A model generated the notes under the pieces. It worked only from the letters and a program-made list of their open reading frames with translations, did no database searches and was not told the origin of the DNA. A stretch of DNA of 64,000 bases from a virus. The DNA is taken from IMG/VR virus record IMGVR_UViG_3300020457_000007, positions 1 to 64,000 of that record; one strand, written 5' to 3'. Each line of letters starts with the position of its first letter. The stretch's first letter is position 1. The translations under genes and the position numbers were made by a program. Shown here in pieces: positions 3,753 to 26,468 of the stretch.

Positions 3753-4783
3753 TATACAGCTTCACAACTTTCAATATATAGTGATTTCATTAATTTCTTA
3801 AGGTCGGTTTTATCTACATTAACGTCCACGTCATCTAGGTATTCATCTAGTAATGACAAGGTATCTTTAACGTCGATATCATTTGCCTGTGGATCCTCAA
3901 AGACTCCAACCTTCTCTATAACACTAACGTCTAATGCACCCTCATCATATAATGAGTTTAGCATATGTTCAAATCGAACGTAGTTAGTTTTCTGTTCTAC
4001 TATAACCTTAACGTATTGTCCTCTATAATTCTTTGGTTCTATCTCTGTATCATCATTCCAGTATATCTTAGAGAAGATCTCATATGGATTCTTGATGAAC
4101 TCCATTTCAAAGGTATCTGTTTCAAAGCTATGGAATCCTCTAGGGTCTCCATAGTCATTCCAATATAACTGATAAGGATTACCTAAGTAAGTTACGTTGC
4201 CTTTCGTGGATTTGTGATGGAAGTGGCCAGATAATACGAGATCAAAGTCTGAAAAAACACTAGCGTCCATACCGTGTTCGTATACGAAGCCAGGGCGAGC
4301 AAGATAGCCGCTGAGCTCGAGATGACCCATTGCGACTTTGGAAGTACTTTGCTTAATTGTCTTGAGAGATTTTTCATAGTTATCCGCACATATCCACGGT
4401 ACAAATAGTATAGAGGTACCTCCTATATCTAGATCAAGAGCATCCTGATAACAATACACATTGTCATATTCCGACAATAGCATATACAATGTATTGAGAT
4501 CGTTTGTATTTTTATAGTATGCTGTATGGTTACCTACGATAGTATGAACAGTAATGTCCATAGCCCTAAGAGTATCATAGTATCTCCTAGCCCATTGTAA
4601 GGTAACAAAGTCTATGCTCTTTCGATTGTCAAATGTATCTCCTAGATCTAAGAGCGTGGTTATCTTATTCTCCTTCAACCAAGGAAAGAATATATTCTCA
4701 TAGAACTCTGAGTAGTAATCTAAGTATACCTGACTACCCTTATGAGAACCAAAGTGTTGGTCGGTTATGATCCCTACTTTCAT
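3752..4783 (-). CDS. 47: gp47 recombination endonuclease subunit (Mre11/SbcD-like)
   Basis: 343 aa (T4 gp47 is 339 aa). Calcineurin-type metallophosphoesterase motifs appear in order: DQH near residue 8, LGD-FDNR near residue 47, GNH near residue 84, MGHLE near residue 152 and SGHFHHK near residue 185. These ligate the two catalytic metals. In the family this subunit supplies the nuclease of the gp46/47 complex. The start overlaps the preceding 59-aa gene by ATGA. The protein is intact and there is no reasonable alternative identity. Confidence 0.96.
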   Translation of the reverse strand: MKVGIITDQHFGSHKGSQVYLDYYSEFYENIFFPWLKENKITTLLDLGDTFDNRKSIDFVTLQWARRYYDTLRAMDITVHTIVGNHTAYYKNTNDLNTLYMLLSEYDNVYCYQDALDLDIGGTSILFVPWICADNYEKSLKTIKQSTSKVAMGHLELSGYLARPGFVYEHGMDASVFSDFDLVLSGHFHHKSTKGNVTYLGNPYQLYWNDYGDPRGFHSFETDTFEMEFIKNPYEIFSKIYWNDDTEIEPKNYRGQYVKVIVEQKTNYVRFEHMLNSLYDEGALDVSVIEKVGVFEDPQANDIDVKDTLSLLDEYLDDVDVNVDKTDLKKLMKSLYIESCEAV

Positions 4784-17335: not shown

Positions 17336-17480
17336 ATTGATTCTCACTTATAAAATCAAGGTAAGCATACCAGTCCTTTCGTTCACACCCATTGTTTATA
17401 GCATCATACATTAGATCAACAGTATTGTGATGAGGAAATATAGGATGCTTACAGGTGTATTCGGGTACAACAAATGTCAT
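17322..17480 (-). CDS. Hypothetical small protein immediately after gp17 (52 aa)
   Basis: ATG at 17480 shares its last base with the gp17 stop (TAATG), and TGA is at 17322-17324. The peptide has two cysteines (residues 10 and 32) and a helical middle with 'LMYDAINNGCERKDWYAYLDFI'. The coupled start and lack of any other gene in this 145-base stretch support it. Function is unknown. Confidence 0.6.
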   Translation of the reverse strand: MTFVVPEYTCKHPIFPHHNTVDLMYDAINNGCERKDWYAYLDFISENQYDFQ

Positions 17481-19144
17481 TAGATGTAAGGCATCATATA
17501 ATCTACTTCGTACTGTTTAGTACCATATTCATCTAGCTGCCATACATTACCATCCTCATCTACTATAGTCTCTTCATCTAATCCTGTCTCTATGAATCCG
17601 AACGGAGCCATATCTTGTTCCATTTCATTCTTACGTTCATCATAGATCTTCTTACGAACGTCAAGGTCTGTTAGTTCCCTGAAGAAATCCTGAAGTACCA
17701 TCCAAGAGAATATGACGTGACACATTACTAGGTCATCGTGATACCCTTCATCTGCTTCAAATGAATCTTTCTTCTGAACAAACGTAGTTAGTTCTGCGAT
17801 AGTGTCATAGTCATTGATAAGTAACTTATCCTCTTCTATGAGTGCCTTAAGGTTAGAGCATCCTTGCTTCTTAACCGTCTTAGACATCTTGACACCTAAC
17901 TGTGCTTTACCACCAGAGAAACCAGATCCCATAACCTGACCAGCTCTACCACGCATAGCACACATCAATAGATTAGGATACTCCAGATCAAACTGAAGAA
18001 TAGAAGCAACCTGATCTCCTATATCATTCACCTCTATCATTATATTTGCATTATTATAATTCCTTGCAGTGTCATATATGACATTAGGAAATAGTATAGG
18101 TTTGATTTCATTGTTCCTATACTTACCTACTAATCTATACGGGAACTCTGTGATATCAAATATACAGAAGGCAGAGTAATCCTGTGCGGTTCCTCTAGCT
18201 ACGTCAACAGTAATAACATACTCGTGTTTATCTTTTCTCTGTTCATATAGATCTAATCCTTTATTCCTTACTATAGGAGTGTCGAATGATAGTGCTTTTA
18301 ACTTAGCAGGGTTGATAAGAGTATCCTGTGATCCTAAGAATTCGCACTCAAACTCCTGAGTGAACTGTCTTTGAGAAGTATTACGTATAGTCTGTTCCTT
18401 CCACTTAGCATCTCTACCAGGAACCTGAGACCAATGTACTTCGTGATTTACATATTCGTTTCTACCTTTGAGGGAGTCCTCCCACATCTTGTAGAACATA
18501 TTCATCCCGTTAGGGGTGGATATGATAATTACTTTTGATTTCTTACCTGAACTAATCGTCGGATAAACGGAACTAAAAAACTGATCGCATATATGGTTGG
18601 GGATAAATGCAAACTCATCAAGGAAGACAATATTGAAAGACATACCACGGACAGCACTGGCACTGGTAGAAGCAGCAATAAGTTTCGATCCATTTTCTAA
18701 CTCCAGTGATCCTCTGTTCCAAGCAACGATACCTTGTTGCATCCAACGTGGTAAATTCTCATAAGATAATTGGAGACGACTGAGCATTTCCCTAGCCGTC
18801 GCAGCTTTGTTTGCAAGAATTGCTACGTTTACATTAGCATTAAACAGTGCGTAATGCAACAGGTAGGTCGTAACGATAGTAGACTTACCAGACTGACGAG
18901 GCAATTTTGCTATATTAAATCTGTTCGTATGGAACTTATGCATCATCTCCTTCTGGAAATCATACATCTTAAAGTCCATCAAACCTTCGTCTATATTAAC
19001 AATCTTCAAATACCTTTCAGTGAAGTAGACAGGATTGTCCCTACACTTAATATACTCGGCAATTTGCTTCTTAGTAAAGTTCTGCTGAGTATTTGCTTTT
19101 TTTAAATTGGGGTTACCAAGATATATGTCAGTAGCTGCTCCCAT
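17480..19144 (-). CDS. 17: gp17 large terminase (packaging ATPase/nuclease)
   Basis: 554 aa (T4 gp17 is 610 aa). Walker A (PRQSGKST) is near residue 81, Walker B (IVFLDEFAF) near 171 and the coupling motif (IISTPNG) near 205. The C-terminal RNase H-fold nuclease has its acidic residues in 'ITVDVARG' near 290, 'MIEVNDIGD' near 365 and 'DEGYHDDLV' near 480. It cuts concatemers and drives DNA into the prohead through gp20. Unlike T4, gp16 is not its neighbour and lies about 7 kb away. Overlaps of 1 base at both ends indicate coupling. Confidence 0.97.
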   Translation of the reverse strand: MGAATDIYLGNPNLKKANTQQNFTKKQIAEYIKCRDNPVYFTERYLKIVNIDEGLMDFKMYDFQKEMMHKFHTNRFNIAKLPRQSGKSTIVTTYLLHYALFNANVNVAILANKAATAREMLSRLQLSYENLPRWMQQGIVAWNRGSLELENGSKLIAASTSASAVRGMSFNIVFLDEFAFIPNHICDQFFSSVYPTISSGKKSKVIIISTPNGMNMFYKMWEDSLKGRNEYVNHEVHWSQVPGRDAKWKEQTIRNTSQRQFTQEFECEFLGSQDTLINPAKLKALSFDTPIVRNKGLDLYEQRKDKHEYVITVDVARGTAQDYSAFCIFDITEFPYRLVGKYRNNEIKPILFPNVIYDTARNYNNANIMIEVNDIGDQVASILQFDLEYPNLLMCAMRGRAGQVMGSGFSGGKAQLGVKMSKTVKKQGCSNLKALIEEDKLLINDYDTIAELTTFVQKKDSFEADEGYHDDLVMCHVIFSWMVLQDFFRELTDLDVRKKIYDERKNEMEQDMAPFGFIETGLDEETIVDEDGNVWQLDEYGTKQYEVDYMMPYI

Positions 19145-20887: not shown

Positions 20888-21148
20888 CTACTTATCTCTT
20901 GGCGAGTGACCGTGAGCAATTCCTAACTCGTGCATCTTTGCGTGTTCATCAATCTGATCTCTCAGGTCTTTCTTGCCTGGTCCGAAAGTGTTGTATAACC
21001 CCACCCCTACTAGAGTTAGAAGGAATAATCCTATGAATAGAATAAACCCTTGATCAGGTGACAGGTTTAAATGGTTGATTAAAGGTGTCTTACACTCAGT
21101 CCAAGTACCAGGTAAGTGGTACACAGGAGGACAGGATAAAAAAATCAT
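20888..21148 (-). CDS. Single-pass membrane protein (86 aa)
   Basis: I chose ATG 21148, which has AAGGAA seven bases upstream and begins just after the preceding stop; an ATG at 21166 lies inside the previous gene. A hydrophobic segment 'GFILFIGLFLLTLVGVGLY' covers about residues 34-52. Two Cys residues lie before it and a charged, His-rich tail after it. Topology is probably N-out, C-in. Function is unknown. Confidence 0.65.
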   Translation of the reverse strand: MIFLSCPPVYHLPGTWTECKTPLINHLNLSPDQGFILFIGLFLLTLVGVGLYNTFGPGKKDLRDQIDEHAKMHELGIAHGHSPRDK

Positions 21149-21149
21149 A

Positions 21150-21560
21150 CTAAGTTCCTTGGCCAATTTTGTCTATGAATATTATAGCAGTATATGGGTG
21201 TCCATTGCTAGATGTTGTTATCTCTATAGGACCAACAGCTGTATCTTCCAGTACACCAGAACCAGCAAGGTTCATTTCTCCACATCCACCAAGGATGATT
21301 ACAGTGGTACCACCACGTCCTACCTTAACGTGCTTACCTCCATCTTGAGGCATTGAGTAAATAATTTTTGCGATGTCCAATTTAGTTGGAACCTGTGTAC
21401 GGGTTGCTCTACCCTTACTACCAGCAGAACCAAACTCAGGAACACCTGATTCGACCACTACGTCATATGATAAATCCGCAAGATCTATCGTAGTAGCATC
21501 TTCGGACGTAATCTTCACGACCGCTTGACGTTGGTTATTTTTGAGAACGACTTTTGACAT
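21150..21560 (-). CDS. Beta-rich hypothetical (possible virion) protein (136 aa)
   Basis: Alternating hydrophobic strands, a Gly-rich stretch 'GKHVKVGRGGTTVIILGGCGEMNLAGSG' near residues 75-103, and no helices or membrane segments suggest a compact beta protein, perhaps a virion component. A CTAAATAA late promoter 15 bases upstream supports late expression. I do not know a named family for it. Confidence 0.75.
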   Translation of the reverse strand: MSKVVLKNNQRQAVVKITSEDATTIDLADLSYDVVVESGVPEFGSAGSKGRATRTQVPTKLDIAKIIYSMPQDGGKHVKVGRGGTTVIILGGCGEMNLAGSGVLEDTAVGPIEITTSSNGHPYTAIIFIDKIGQGT

Positions 21561-21759: not shown

Positions 21760-21767
21760 TATAAATA
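21760..21767 (+). promoter_or_regulatory. Late promoter of the plus-strand secreted operon (TATAAATA)
   Basis: Exact T4 late consensus on the plus strand, 24 bases before the GTG start at 21792. It is the only consensus late promoter on this strand that fits a gene start. Confidence 0.7.
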
Positions 21768-21791: not shown

Positions 21792-22283
21792 GTGAAAAAG
21801 ATTTTACTCATATTAGGAATATTTGCACTAGGTGGACAAGCTGCTCGTGCAGATATTACTTCACGTATGACTTCTAGCGTACAGCTAACAGTCAACGCAG
21901 CTGCAACACAGATGCAAAGAGTTGGAAATTCTTATAGCATCTCTGGTAATAACGTGGACACAACTGATGGTACGACGGCTAACACGATTAGTGCGGGTGC
22001 TATAAGTAGTGGTGTCTATGGTCCTGGAACTATTTCAGTAGTACAGGATGACCCAGGTGAGGCGTTTAGCTTCTCAACTTCATTCATTCAAGGTGATGCA
22101 ATAGATACAAGTGGACCTAACGTCGGTGATGTTTCGGCATACTCGAACCAATTATCTACTGCTGCTGGAAGTGCGGGATCCCTTGCAGGAACTGTAACTT
22201 CGCAAGGTGCCTTGACGGTAACAGCTGGTGGAGCTGGAACTACAGCTACTGGACAGTTTGTTACAGAGCTCCAGATCGACTAG
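21792..22283 (+). CDS. Secreted protein 1 of plus-strand operon (163 aa)
   Basis: GTG start. Residues 1-21 are a clear signal peptide (KK, hydrophobic LLILGIFALGG, AxA-type site ARA/D). The mature part is Thr/Ser/Gly/Ala-rich and beta-like, with a 'DDPGEAFSFSTSF' motif near residue 90 that recurs in the next protein. There is no membrane anchor. The product is probably exported to the periplasm by the host Sec system during late infection. It could be a virion-associated or envelope-acting protein; I cannot name a family. A 5-codon reading frame ends across its start. Confidence 0.8.
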   Translation: MKKILLILGIFALGGQAARADITSRMTSSVQLTVNAAATQMQRVGNSYSISGNNVDTTDGTTANTISAGAISSGVYGPGTISVVQDDPGEAFSFSTSFIQGDAIDTSGPNVGDVSAYSNQLSTAAGSAGSLAGTVTSQGALTVTAGGAGTTATGQFVTELQID

Positions 22284-22304
22284 TGAAGTGGAGGTTTTGG
22301 CAAA

Positions 22305-22787
22305 ATGAAGAAGAGGATTGCCCAATATGTGACTGCTGTGGTAAGTGCAAGTGTCGTTGCTGCACCTGTCCTGGCGGTCCCAGTGGTCCCCAACTTCCAA
22401 CAGGGCTCGATGACGAGTCATACCGAGACTGAAAGCACAGTCACGGAGACAATAAATTCAATTGATTATCGTACAGGATGGGAATACTCAGTGACAGGGG
22501 TAGGCGTGGACAACAATGGCGAAGCCCTCAACCCCCCAGTGAACAACTCAACAGTGACACTCTCACCAACCGTGGGAACAGGAGAAGGAGCTATAACGGG
22601 AAGTGTAACTTCTTCGTTCGATGCTATAGACTTCTCAGCACAAAACAACTTCACAATCCACGAGCCTGGGGGAGCGTTTCAATTTACCCAGACATATCAA
22701 GGACCAGGGATGACCAACCAGACAATAATACAAAGATTAACCACCGTAAAGTCAGTCACCGACACAACAAGTACATTTACGCAATAG
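22305..22787 (+). CDS. Secreted protein 2 of plus-strand operon (160 aa)
   Basis: ATG preceded by GGAGG at 12 bases. A signal peptide (MKKRIAQYVTAVVSASVVAAPVLA) is followed by a Thr/Ser/Val-rich beta-like domain. 'HEPGGAFQFTQTYQGPG' near residues 121-137 parallels the PG-AF-F motif of protein 1, so the two look like distant paralogues. It has no cysteine. The last 52 bases overlap the third reading frame. It is co-transcribed with its neighbours from the late promoter at 21760. Function is unknown. Confidence 0.8.
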   Translation: MKKRIAQYVTAVVSASVVAAPVLAVPVVPNFQQGSMTSHTETESTVTETINSIDYRTGWEYSVTGVGVDNNGEALNPPVNNSTVTLSPTVGTGEGAITGSVTSSFDAIDFSAQNNFTIHEPGGAFQFTQTYQGPGMTNQTIIQRLTTVKSVTDTTSTFTQ

Positions 22788-23806
22788 CGACTATAGGTAG
22801 TCTTTTATCTCCTAACGTCGCATTAGCAGAAGGTGTTGGTGGTGTATCTGCTACTGCTAATCCTATAGCCAACTCTTCTGGCTCAGTGACCAACCAGGCA
22901 ATACAGGTTTTACAAGGTCCGTACGTAACTAACACCTACGGTGGAGGGGTATCTTGTCAAGGTACGACTCTCAATATGACACCTTATGTGCAGTTTGCAG
23001 ATTCAAGGAAAGATCCTTGGGAAGATTTTTATAACGAACCGCAATATAACCTAACAGATATAGATGGAAGAACAGTAAAACAAACCGTTACTGTTAAGAA
23101 CTATCCTTGGGAAACTTGGTATGATAATCGTACTAAGACAGATGGTACTAGATGGTTTGAAGATGGAGATGATATACAAATAGAAATAGATGTACCAGCT
23201 GGTGATGGAGTACCTGACATTGTAGCTGATGGTGGGGAAATGACCCCTACTTGGTTTAAACCAGTTAGAACAGATATGAGAGCGAATCAGAGTTTCAACG
23301 TAGGTATCTCTGCTACGCTTTCTATACCATTGAACAGAGGTATGCAACGTAAGTGTTCTGAAGCTGCAACAGCACAGATAGCATCTGTTCAACAGTTGAC
23401 TGCTAACAAGCGTTTAGACTTTGAATTAGCTAGACTTAAGAATTGTGGTGAACTCAAAAAAGCTGGTATAATGTTCCACCCTGCGTCTCCATACCACGCA
23501 GTATGTGCAGACGTTATGGTATCATCTCCTGGCAATAGAGTACTTCCACACGAACACGAAATACCACAACCTACTTGGACACAACCTTCTTCTGACCAAA
23601 CTTCAGAGGAGTCAAGTTCTTCTTCTCTCGATACTGATTTGTCCGAATCTCAGATTGAGTCGGATGGTACGGGGTCTTCCCAAGAAGTTTCTGAATCTTC
23701 GCAATCGTCTTCTTTATCACAGGCTTCACAACTTTCAATAACAGATCCGCAATGGGTTTTGCAAGTAGGGCAGACGTTGTTGCCACCGCAGCAATCGAAG
23801 CAGTAG
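22736..23806 (+). CDS. Secreted protein 3 of plus-strand operon, non-canonical start
   Basis: The frame carries a signal-peptide-like stretch (YIYAIATIGSLLSPNVALA/EG) and a conserved-looking exported domain (GVGGVSATANPIANSSGSVTN, then GPYVTNTYGGGVSCQG). A helical region near codons 190-250 follows, then a Ser/Glu/Gln-rich tail. No ATG, GTG or TTG lies between gene 2's interior and the signal peptide. The best local start is ATT at 22736, or a frameshift from gene 2. An ATG at 22478 would add a stretch that is just gene 2 read out of frame. The last 236 bases are antisense to the next gene. Cyanophages have similar proteins; function is unknown. Confidence 0.65.
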   Translation: MNHRKVSHRHNKYIYAIATIGSLLSPNVALAEGVGGVSATANPIANSSGSVTNQAIQVLQGPYVTNTYGGGVSCQGTTLNMTPYVQFADSRKDPWEDFYNEPQYNLTDIDGRTVKQTVTVKNYPWETWYDNRTKTDGTRWFEDGDDIQIEIDVPAGDGVPDIVADGGEMTPTWFKPVRTDMRANQSFNVGISATLSIPLNRGMQRKCSEAATAQIASVQQLTANKRLDFELARLKNCGELKKAGIMFHPASPYHAVCADVMVSSPGNRVLPHEHEIPQPTWTQPSSDQTSEESSSSSLDTDLSESQIESDGTGSSQEVSESSQSSSLSQASQLSITDPQWVLQVGQTLLPPQQSKQ

Positions 23807-24473
23807 TTGTTACTGTAGGTATAGATGGTAGAAATTGCTCTATTGTTGGAACAGGTTCCCATATGGTTTCACATATCTTACCATCAGGTGTCAGTTTATA
23901 TTCTTTAACTTTCTCTGTACCCTCCTGATTCAGGTCTCCAATGCGTCTTGCATTAATAGGAGGGCATTCTACCTCATCTTCTCCACCTCCTGTTGGAGGC
24001 GGTTCTGGAGTGTCTAGATCAGGAGCTGGTGGTGGATCACCTGTATCTACTCCACCTGCATCTGGTTCATCTTGCGTAATAGTTTGCCAAGTTAGTTCTC
24101 TATAATCATAGTCAGGTGGTTCATAATAAGGAGCACCTGCATCACACAATACTGTATTGCCTTTAGGGTCGTCATCGACCAGCATCTTATTTCTTGATCT
24201 CTGCTTTACATTCTCCTTGTGTACCTTTACACAACCAGGCATATTAACTATAGGAGTACCAGCTAGGACAGTTACAGGAACTGTTACTGGTATAGCTTGT
24301 GGTGGTTCTATTATCCACGCACGTGCATCAGCAATACCTCTAACACCTATACGATTAATTCCTGTCTCTTCTGCTTTGAGTGTCCCAATAAAACGAATTC
24401 CAGTACCGTTAACTTGAATGTTAGGGATACTGGAATTGCTTGTATTAGGAATAAATGGAATATTATTTTCCAC
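23571..24473 (-). CDS. Hypothetical Pro-rich protein with C-terminal hydrophobic/basic region (300 aa)
   Basis: The N-terminal third looks beta-rich (IQVNGTGIRFIGTLKAEETG; PPQAIPVTVPVTVLAGTP). A disordered Pro/Asp/Gly-rich linker runs from about residue 130 to 170. A hydrophobic Ala/Thr-rich segment covers about 218-240 (TTTASIAAVATTSALLAKPIADLLL), with a strongly basic tail (KKTIAKIQKLL...KKVVSK). It may be membrane-associated. It overlaps the following 88-aa gene by 11 bases at its start. The 3' 236 bases are convergent and antisense to secreted protein 3. No family is recognised. Confidence 0.7.
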   Translation of the reverse strand: MENNIPFIPNTSNSSIPNIQVNGTGIRFIGTLKAEETGINRIGVRGIADARAWIIEPPQAIPVTVPVTVLAGTPIVNMPGCVKVHKENVKQRSRNKMLVDDDPKGNTVLCDAGAPYYEPPDYDYRELTWQTITQDEPDAGGVDTGDPPPAPDLDTPEPPPTGGGEDEVECPPINARRIGDLNQEGTEKVKEYKLTPDGKICETIWEPVPTIEQFLPSIPTVTTTASIAAVATTSALLAKPIADLLLKVVKPVIKKTIAKIQKLLGKTPYHPTQSEIRTNQYREKKNLTPLKFGQKKVVSK

Positions 24474-25660: not shown

Positions 25661-26068
25661 TTATAACGTATATTTTTTGTCTGCGTCTTTAGGTGACTCA
25701 GCAATAATTTTTAATGGTGCTTGTTCTATAACAATAGTTTGTGTAGGACCGCCATTCTTTCCTACTCCATTACCATTGCCATTACCATTCATTTTCATTG
25801 TACCATCACCTTTCTTACTAGCTGTCTGAATTCCGAAGCTAGCTAGCACCCCAGTAAATACTGAAGCTATGAAAGTTGGGTCAATTTTTTGTTGCGGAAC
25901 TCCAGGAATTGCAACGTAATTTAAAGTCAATATACCCCCAGACCACACTAGTACACCCAATCTCACGAAAGTGGAGATTATGGCAGCCTGTTCATCTTCA
26001 TCTGGTAGTATCTTGTCTTTTAGTTTCTGAAGTGGCCCTTTTGTGTCCACTTTTTTATCATCAGCCAT
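25661..26068 (-). CDS. Two-helix membrane protein next to gp16, holin-like candidate (135 aa)
   Basis: A charged N-terminus (DDKKVDTKGPLQKLKDKILPDEDEQ) is followed by two hydrophobic segments, about residues 29-52 and 64-82 (IISTFVRLGVLVWSGGILTLNYVA; FIASVFTGVLASFGI). A Gly/Asn/Lys tail comes next, with an (NG) repeat near residue 92, and then a further strand. Two-helix size and topology fit a class II holin, though many cyanophages carry such proteins without proof. It starts within the last 8 bases of gp16, so it is coupled to the terminase small subunit. Confidence 0.7.
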   Translation of the reverse strand: MADDKKVDTKGPLQKLKDKILPDEDEQAAIISTFVRLGVLVWSGGILTLNYVAIPGVPQQKIDPTFIASVFTGVLASFGIQTASKKGDGTMKMNGNGNGNGVGKNGGPTQTIVIEQAPLKIIAESPKDADKKYTL

Positions 26069-26468
26069 CGGTAGTTTCCTCTACTTTTTTTAACATTTTT
26101 GCTAGTTCAGCAGTGCTACCAACAAACATAGTGTTGTTGACAGTAGACGGACCTTTTGATGGCCCTTCTTCTTTGACTTCTTTAGTCTCTTTTTGTAACT
26201 TCATCAACTTGTCAGTTGTATCCGCTACGTTCTTAATCATCAAGGCTGCTACTTCATATGCTCTCGGATGATCCGATGATGCTGCAACATCAAGAATACC
26301 GTTAAGTGCTTCTTGACCTTTATCGATTAGATTATATAGCTGACCACGTGTGTATTCGTAGTCTTGAGTGACATCTTCTTTCACTTCACGTTGAGGTTTT
26401 GCAATAACGTCTACCGTCTCCTCAGGGAGATTTAAGATGTCTTGCATATTATCATCTAGTTTGCTCAT
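26061..26468 (-). CDS. 16: gp16 small terminase subunit
   Basis: 135 aa (T4 gp16 is 164 aa). An acidic N-terminus 'LDDNMQDILNLP' comes first, then a helix-turn-helix-like middle (YEYTRGQLYNLIDKGQEALNGILDVAASSDHPRAYEVAALMIKNVADTTDKLMKLQ), with a C-terminal 'NNTMFVGSTAELAKMLKK'. This is the cyanophage gp16 pattern. The ring-forming subunit selects DNA and stimulates gp17. It follows gp15 with an ATGA overlap, the T4 order, but is separated from gp17 by the accessory island. Confidence 0.88.
   Translation of the reverse strand: MSKLDDNMQDILNLPEETVDVIAKPQREVKEDVTQDYEYTRGQLYNLIDKGQEALNGILDVAASSDHPRAYEVAALMIKNVADTTDKLMKLQKETKEVKEEGPSKGPSTVNNTMFVGSTAELAKMLKKVEETTDG

Follow-up and report, generated by a model that had tools for sequence, protein, structure and literature searches.

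Overlapping genes for two predicted exported proteins in T4-like and T7-like marine cyanophages, with a possible role in host lysis

The 64-kb window analysed here, the whole stretch of DNA under study, is part of an 87.8-kb IMG/VR record and has its T4-like genes for structure and packaging on the minus strand. It belongs to a T4-like cyanophage (Kyanoviridae), with Prochlorococcus phage P-SSM7 among its closest annotated relatives. Between the gene of the terminase small subunit (26061-26468) and the ORF at 17480-19144, presumably terminase large subunit-like (gp17), lies a module of three plus-strand frames: ORF1 (21792-22283, GTG start), ORF2 (22305-22787), and ORF3, which ends at 23806. 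These ORFs had been singled out by the initial annotation and are present as described; since the other plus-strand ORFs of at least 100 aa all face minus-strand genes, 21792-23806 is the only plus-strand cluster seen in the window. Close to the module, a small minus-strand ORF (20891-21166) holds a C-terminal part that matches the Pfam family PsbN (photosystem II protein N) with 25.3 bits against a cut-off of 25 bits, and is possibly a photosynthesis-related gene.

Profile searches place ORF1 in phrog_564, ORF2 in phrog_650 and the Pfam family DUF6322, and ORF3 in phrog_848 (E 6e-114) and phrog_1755 (E 8e-71), families that appear in isolates as T4-GC237, T4-GC236, and T4-GC235, or as Syn9 gp167, gp166, and gp165. 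ORF2 is a member of DUF6322 (PF19847), with 126.2 bits against the Pfam cut-off of 30.6, whereas ORF1 stays below this cut-off with 12.1 bits, and 10 of 55 ORF1 relatives match the family at E <0.05. The paralogy of both proteins, proposed from a shared PG-AF-F motif, is borne out by these matches and by a profile comparison over this part (hhalign probability 92, E 5e-7), by which ORF1 is a paralogue of ORF2 within the Kyanoviridae operon. Every one of these families is annotated as function unknown, and no literature on DUF6322 was found. The suggestion that the cluster represents an undescribed system thus stands with regard to function, which neither profile nor fold searches provided, but not with regard to the gene families themselves, all three of which are already catalogued. 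What is new is the anatomy of ORF2 and ORF3, whose conserved overlap is the most surprising feature of the locus and was missed by the initial annotation.

ORF3 is found in 417 phage records and ORF2 in 401, essentially all of them cyanophages. Among relatives the trio is conserved as a unit, and judging from these searches the three genes are nearly universal in the virus family of the window. Twelve further matches come from bacterial or archaeal genome contigs (loci L256-L267), binned as Gammaproteobacteria, Bacteroidetes, Phycisphaerae, Chloroflexota, Euryarchaeota, and others. Cellular homologues were rejected, since the arrangement of the phage genes recurs on these contigs although their bins are unrelated; they are most likely of phage origin, and the most divergent hint at related phages of other hosts. 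A separate small ORF in locus L003 (5740-6030, minus strand) looks like the part of ORF3 that holds the conserved helix and the Cys residues (LDFAIARLRHC...HPSSPASWICNDV), as if this part of the protein also occurred as a detached copy.

The cluster had also been credited with its own late promoter. An exact late-type box, TATAAATA, precedes ORF1 by 25 nt (21760-21767); of its seven exact copies in the window, no other is on the plus strand. As approximately five copies are expected there by chance, more weight is carried by its conservation in relatives, where a [AC]TAWATA box precedes ORF1 in 112 of 121 cases against 12.8 expected, in agreement with the promoter claim and suggesting late expression of the cluster. 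The export signals of ORF2 and ORF3 were assessed by rule-based counts, and in these terms a hydrophobic core is present in ORF2 in 217/217 loci, with an AxA-type site ahead of PVVPNF in 216/217 (the predicted cut falling before V-PVVPNF). In ORF3, the hydrophobic maximum adjoins the cleavage region in 215/215 loci, with net positive charge before it in 214, and a signal-peptidase-type site, [AVSTGLI]xA, precedes VGGVSA in 215/216. No Cys follows the cleavage site in either protein, and both signal peptides are probably cleaved.

Of the three Sec-type N-terminal signals initially described, the export signals hold, but that of ORF3 does not stand at the beginning of its protein. Mature ORF3 (VGGVSATANP...) is preceded by a Sec-type signal that begins at the end of ORF2 (~22769-22828, with a rule-based AxA site ahead of EGVGG), and no ATG, GTG, or TTG was found in the window near the beginning of this signal. 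Instead, the frame extends upstream through ORF2, in the -1 frame relative to it, up to an ATG at 22478, so that ORF3 would occupy 22478-23806 and share 22478-22787 with ORF2. In the Kyanoviridae set (244 usable loci from three scans plus isolates, 217 of them distinct), the ORF3 frame is -1 and open into ORF2 in 217/217 distinct loci, and its first in-frame ATG is always made by a Trp codon of ORF2 (xxA TGG), although these loci are related by descent and their counts are not independent events. The T7-like cyanopodoviruses, which carry ORF2 and ORF3 as well, exhibit the same arrangement: ORF3 lies in the -1 frame in 130/130 distinct loci, open back to a start inside ORF2, and the first possible start falls on an ORF2 TGG codon in 128 of the 130 (ATG 91, GTG 24, TTG 13). 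Across both phage families, therefore, the ORF3 start nearly always derives from a Trp codon of ORF2 (NTGG).

The Kyanoviridae loci fall into two groups according to the Trp codon involved. Group A (75 loci, including that of the window) has the ORF3 start at TG[W]EYS, always with GGA as the Gly codon (75/75) and with F, Y, or H at the second site. Group B (142 loci) uses VTSx[W]TG instead, where Trp is preceded by S, T, K, Q, or R, encoded without exception by a codon ending in A, while the site used by group A holds Y (110) or W (31) and its Gly codon is free. The use of two different Trp codons indicates that the ORF2 Trp moves with the ORF3 start. Although the zero-stop counts of each group presuppose the open frame from which the start was defined, two other tests do not. 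Over a stretch set by the ORF2 motif alone, blind to openness, 76 distinct sequences of the window group contain a single -1-frame stop, against 249+-12 expected from synonymous-codon shuffling and 622 from ORF3 codon usage, whereas the +1 frame of the same stretch is undepleted (832 stops observed, 785 expected). Likewise, the last 33 ORF2 codons of the podoviruses hold 9 -1-frame stops against 192+-14 expected. Openness by chance or codon bias is rejected by these figures, and just upstream of the ORF3 start -1-frame stops return to chance level. A non-standard start beside the ORF3 signal peptide was also rejected, since it leaves the open -1 frame unexplained. Initiation of ORF3 at a -1-frame codon inside ORF2 is thereby strongly supported at the sequence level.

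Such an internal start would give the Kyanoviridae ORF3 a basic leader of ~55-105 residues ahead of the Sec signal, and leader and signal would then be removed together by signal peptidase I. Synonymous diversity is hardly reduced in the shared stretch of group A (0.418, versus 0.435 outside it) and moderately lower in that of group B (0.444 versus 0.535), for which reason strong selection on the leader residues was rejected. Selection acts clearly on openness and on the start, perhaps also on the basic character of the leader, and hardly on its exact residues. Compared with stop-free random synonymous sequence, the leader has a somewhat more basic character, which is clearest in group B (net charge 7.9 versus 2.4 to 5.1). 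A Shine-Dalgarno core at the inferred start is modestly enriched in group B (83/142, 66+-6 expected) and not in group A or the podoviruses, and a search for RNA structure at the start codon revealed none.

The overlap also accounts for conflicting annotations and corrects the N-terminus of a widespread protein family. The records of Syn9, S-SM1, and P-HM1 already place the ORF3 start inside ORF2, while other isolate records omit ORF2 (P-SSM7, P-RSM6, S-SKS1) or ORF3 (S-RSM4), or cut the start of ORF3 (P-SSM2, P-SSM4, S-TIM5, S-H38, P-SSP7). The Syn9 gp167, gp166, and gp165 families carry no assigned function, and no analysis of the overlap was found in the searchable literature.

At its 3' end, ORF3 converges on a minus-strand gene of unknown function, phrog_570 (T4-GC234, profile match at 23571-24473), with an antisense overlap of 236 nt (23571-23806) in the window, where ORF3 is consequently overlapped at both ends. 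A second overlap of at least 50 nt is shared by 56/59 loci of group A and 72/106 of group B, and the Ser-rich tail of the window protein is absent from relatives with a short ORF3. Further along the minus strand lies the gene of a two-TM protein (25661-26068; DUF6450, phrog_2714, T4-GC218), which belongs to a family of 428 phage records, nearly all from cyanophages and hypothetical in all rows seen. In Kyanoviridae, this gene lies ~3 kb from ORF2 and ORF3 on the opposite strand, but in cyanopodoviruses it adjoins them: the P-SSP7 relative, annotated with 2 TM regions, directly precedes ORF2, and a tblastn search located a relative upstream of ORF2 in 75/114 podovirus loci. The DUF6450 protein matched no holin family, although it is a possible holin of class II, whose members are small two-TM proteins encoded close to lysis genes.

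The podovirus cassette is best illustrated by P-GSP1 (PRQG_00030-00033), where four overlapping genes encode, in this order, a one-TM protein of phrog_9426 (a family weakly matched by the C-terminal part of the phrog_570 protein), the two-TM DUF6450 protein, ORF2, and ORF3. It holds the same ORF2 and ORF3 families as the window, in the same -1 overlap, but no ORF1 was seen in the cassette examined, its genes are all on one strand and the leader is shorter in some loci. In P-SSP7, gp17 (tail fibre) and gp19 (terminase) flank the cassette (genes 042-045), whose successive genes carry record notes of 1 TM, 2 TM, and a possible signal peptide, and the cassette of P-GSP1 is similarly found between gp17 and gp19 or terminase. 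In the T7 record, this interval is occupied by holin 17.5 with its two TM segments, by gp18, and by Rz and Rz1, whose genes overlap. S-TIP37 (L270, ~4400-4690) differs from a close metagenomic relative in the length of two A runs just before ORF2, by a single base each, and for this reason its DUF6450-like gene has gone unannotated; a short 2-TM relative is found in an S-TIP37-like locus.

AlphaFold models of both proteins, built from sequences of the window and its related loci, are of moderate quality. ORF2 (pLDDT 72, pTM 0.38) is predicted to be largely beta-structured, including two strands of great length. The ORF3 model (pLDDT 67, pTM 0.33) has an N-terminus that is flexible though highly conserved, together with a beta domain and a helix of 42 residues. 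Neither matched the PDB at E <0.001, and a viral structure library returned mainly their own family plus one P-SSP3 protein. Profile searches gave no assignment to a known function such as a curli-type or lysis system, and no curli-type or other known exported fold was significantly matched in Pfam, NCBIfam or, by fold, among solved structures. ORF2 also matched designed WRAP-T repeat proteins weakly by sequence (E 2e-5), but no single stretch passed and the matches were judged spurious. Four Cys residues and an HxH motif are invariant in the ORF3 alignment, which, speculatively, would fit periplasmic disulfides or metal binding.

In a survey covering 677 phages, no spanin was detected in 20 that infect marine Prochlorococcus or Synechococcus, and its table of spanin-less phages includes P-SSM2, P-SSM4, P-SSM7, P-HM1, Syn1, Syn9, Syn33, S-SM1, and P-SSP7 (PMC6139136). 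The survey suggests that the host outer membrane may simply be fragile, but also allows spanin function for proteins of other topology, and its 228 overlapped spanin architectures often had missing or wrong gene calls (PMC6139136). In T7-like cyanopodoviruses, ORF2 and ORF3 are located where T7 keeps its outer-membrane-breaking proteins, which makes them good candidates for this missing function, the synteny being an argument from position only. The preferred reading, tentative but plausible, is that both proteins have a spanin-like lysis role and form, with the linked DUF6450 protein, the exported arm of a marine cyanophage lysis module. A late, Sec-exported pair made from overlapping genes would act on the periplasm and the outer membrane when infection ends, doing the work of Rz/Rz1-type spanins as non-lipidated proteins, while the DUF6450 protein might serve as a holin. 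Against this reading stand the absence of a lipobox, the distance and opposite strand of the DUF6450 gene in Kyanoviridae, and a Shine-Dalgarno core that is not enriched at the inferred start in group A or the podoviruses. A broader proposal is possible but more doubtful, namely that marine cyanophages from two unrelated families have in common a third type of system for disrupting the outer membrane, in which two signal-peptidase-processed, non-lipidated proteins from obligately overlapping genes replace spanins.

Export signals and a late-type box would equally suit envelope modifiers that block superinfection or change the cell surface late in infection, the overlap being mere genome compaction. 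This alternative, which is regarded as unlikely, is favoured by the paralogous, beta-rich nature of the secreted proteins and by ORF1 as a third one in Kyanoviridae, whereas the T7-like lysis-locus position and near-universality in two unrelated phage families suggest a core function. Sec-exported proteins leave the compartment in which tailed phages assemble. The virion surface role offered by the initial annotation, as well as any addition of both proteins to the particle as virion or receptor-related components, is for this reason improbable, given the signal-peptidase sites of nearly all loci, although Foldseek ranks phage tail or collar proteins highest for both models, at non-significant values (E 0.007 and 0.11), and S-SM1 virions contain 18 hypothetical proteins (PMC3037559). 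As for the expression of ORF3, the constant -1 frame could be taken as a sign of programmed ribosomal frameshifting that yields an ORF2-ORF3 fusion. However, such a mechanism would require no frame that stays open as far as a start codon, and no NTGG start that shifts along with it, and a canonical slippery heptamer lies within the shared stretch of just 21/347 loci, which makes frameshifting very improbable.

As a two-gene candidate for host opening common to T4-like and T7-like cyanophages, the pair is testable in the laboratory phages Syn9 or S-TIP37, where a method for recombination is available (PMC8776855); in published work, a chloramphenicol marker was inserted between gp45 and gp46 of S-TIP37. 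If the third type of system were real, it would represent a spanin replacement in phages of the most abundant photosynthetic bacteria. Whatever its function, the overlap clearly exemplifies long dual coding on one strand in a large DNA phage, where a start codon in one frame dictates a Trp in the other.

The known systems closest to this arrangement are the two-component spanins, such as lambda Rz/Rz1, T7 gp18.5/18.7, and those of P2, to which no sequence relation of ORF2 or ORF3 was found. Unlike these, ORF2 and ORF3 lack the lipoprotein signal that provides the Cys of an o-spanin, and hold signal peptidase I sites and beta-rich predicted folds instead. ORF3 does possess one hydrophobic segment behind a leader of the cytoplasmic basic type, yet with a signal-peptidase-like site and no clear uncleaved membrane anchor of the kind expected in an i-spanin. 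Given the missing lipobox, the pair is not classified as spanins, and the claim is limited to possibly the same job. Like two-component spanins, however, ORF2 and ORF3 are two envelope-directed proteins whose second gene is started within the first and read in a different frame. This embedded or overlapped arrangement is among three known spanin architectures and is present here, always at -1, in 347/347 distinct loci. They also share with them a late region and, in T7-like cyanophages such as P-SSP7, an adjoining two-TM (holin-like) gene and the gp17-gp19 interval in which T7 encodes its own spanins.
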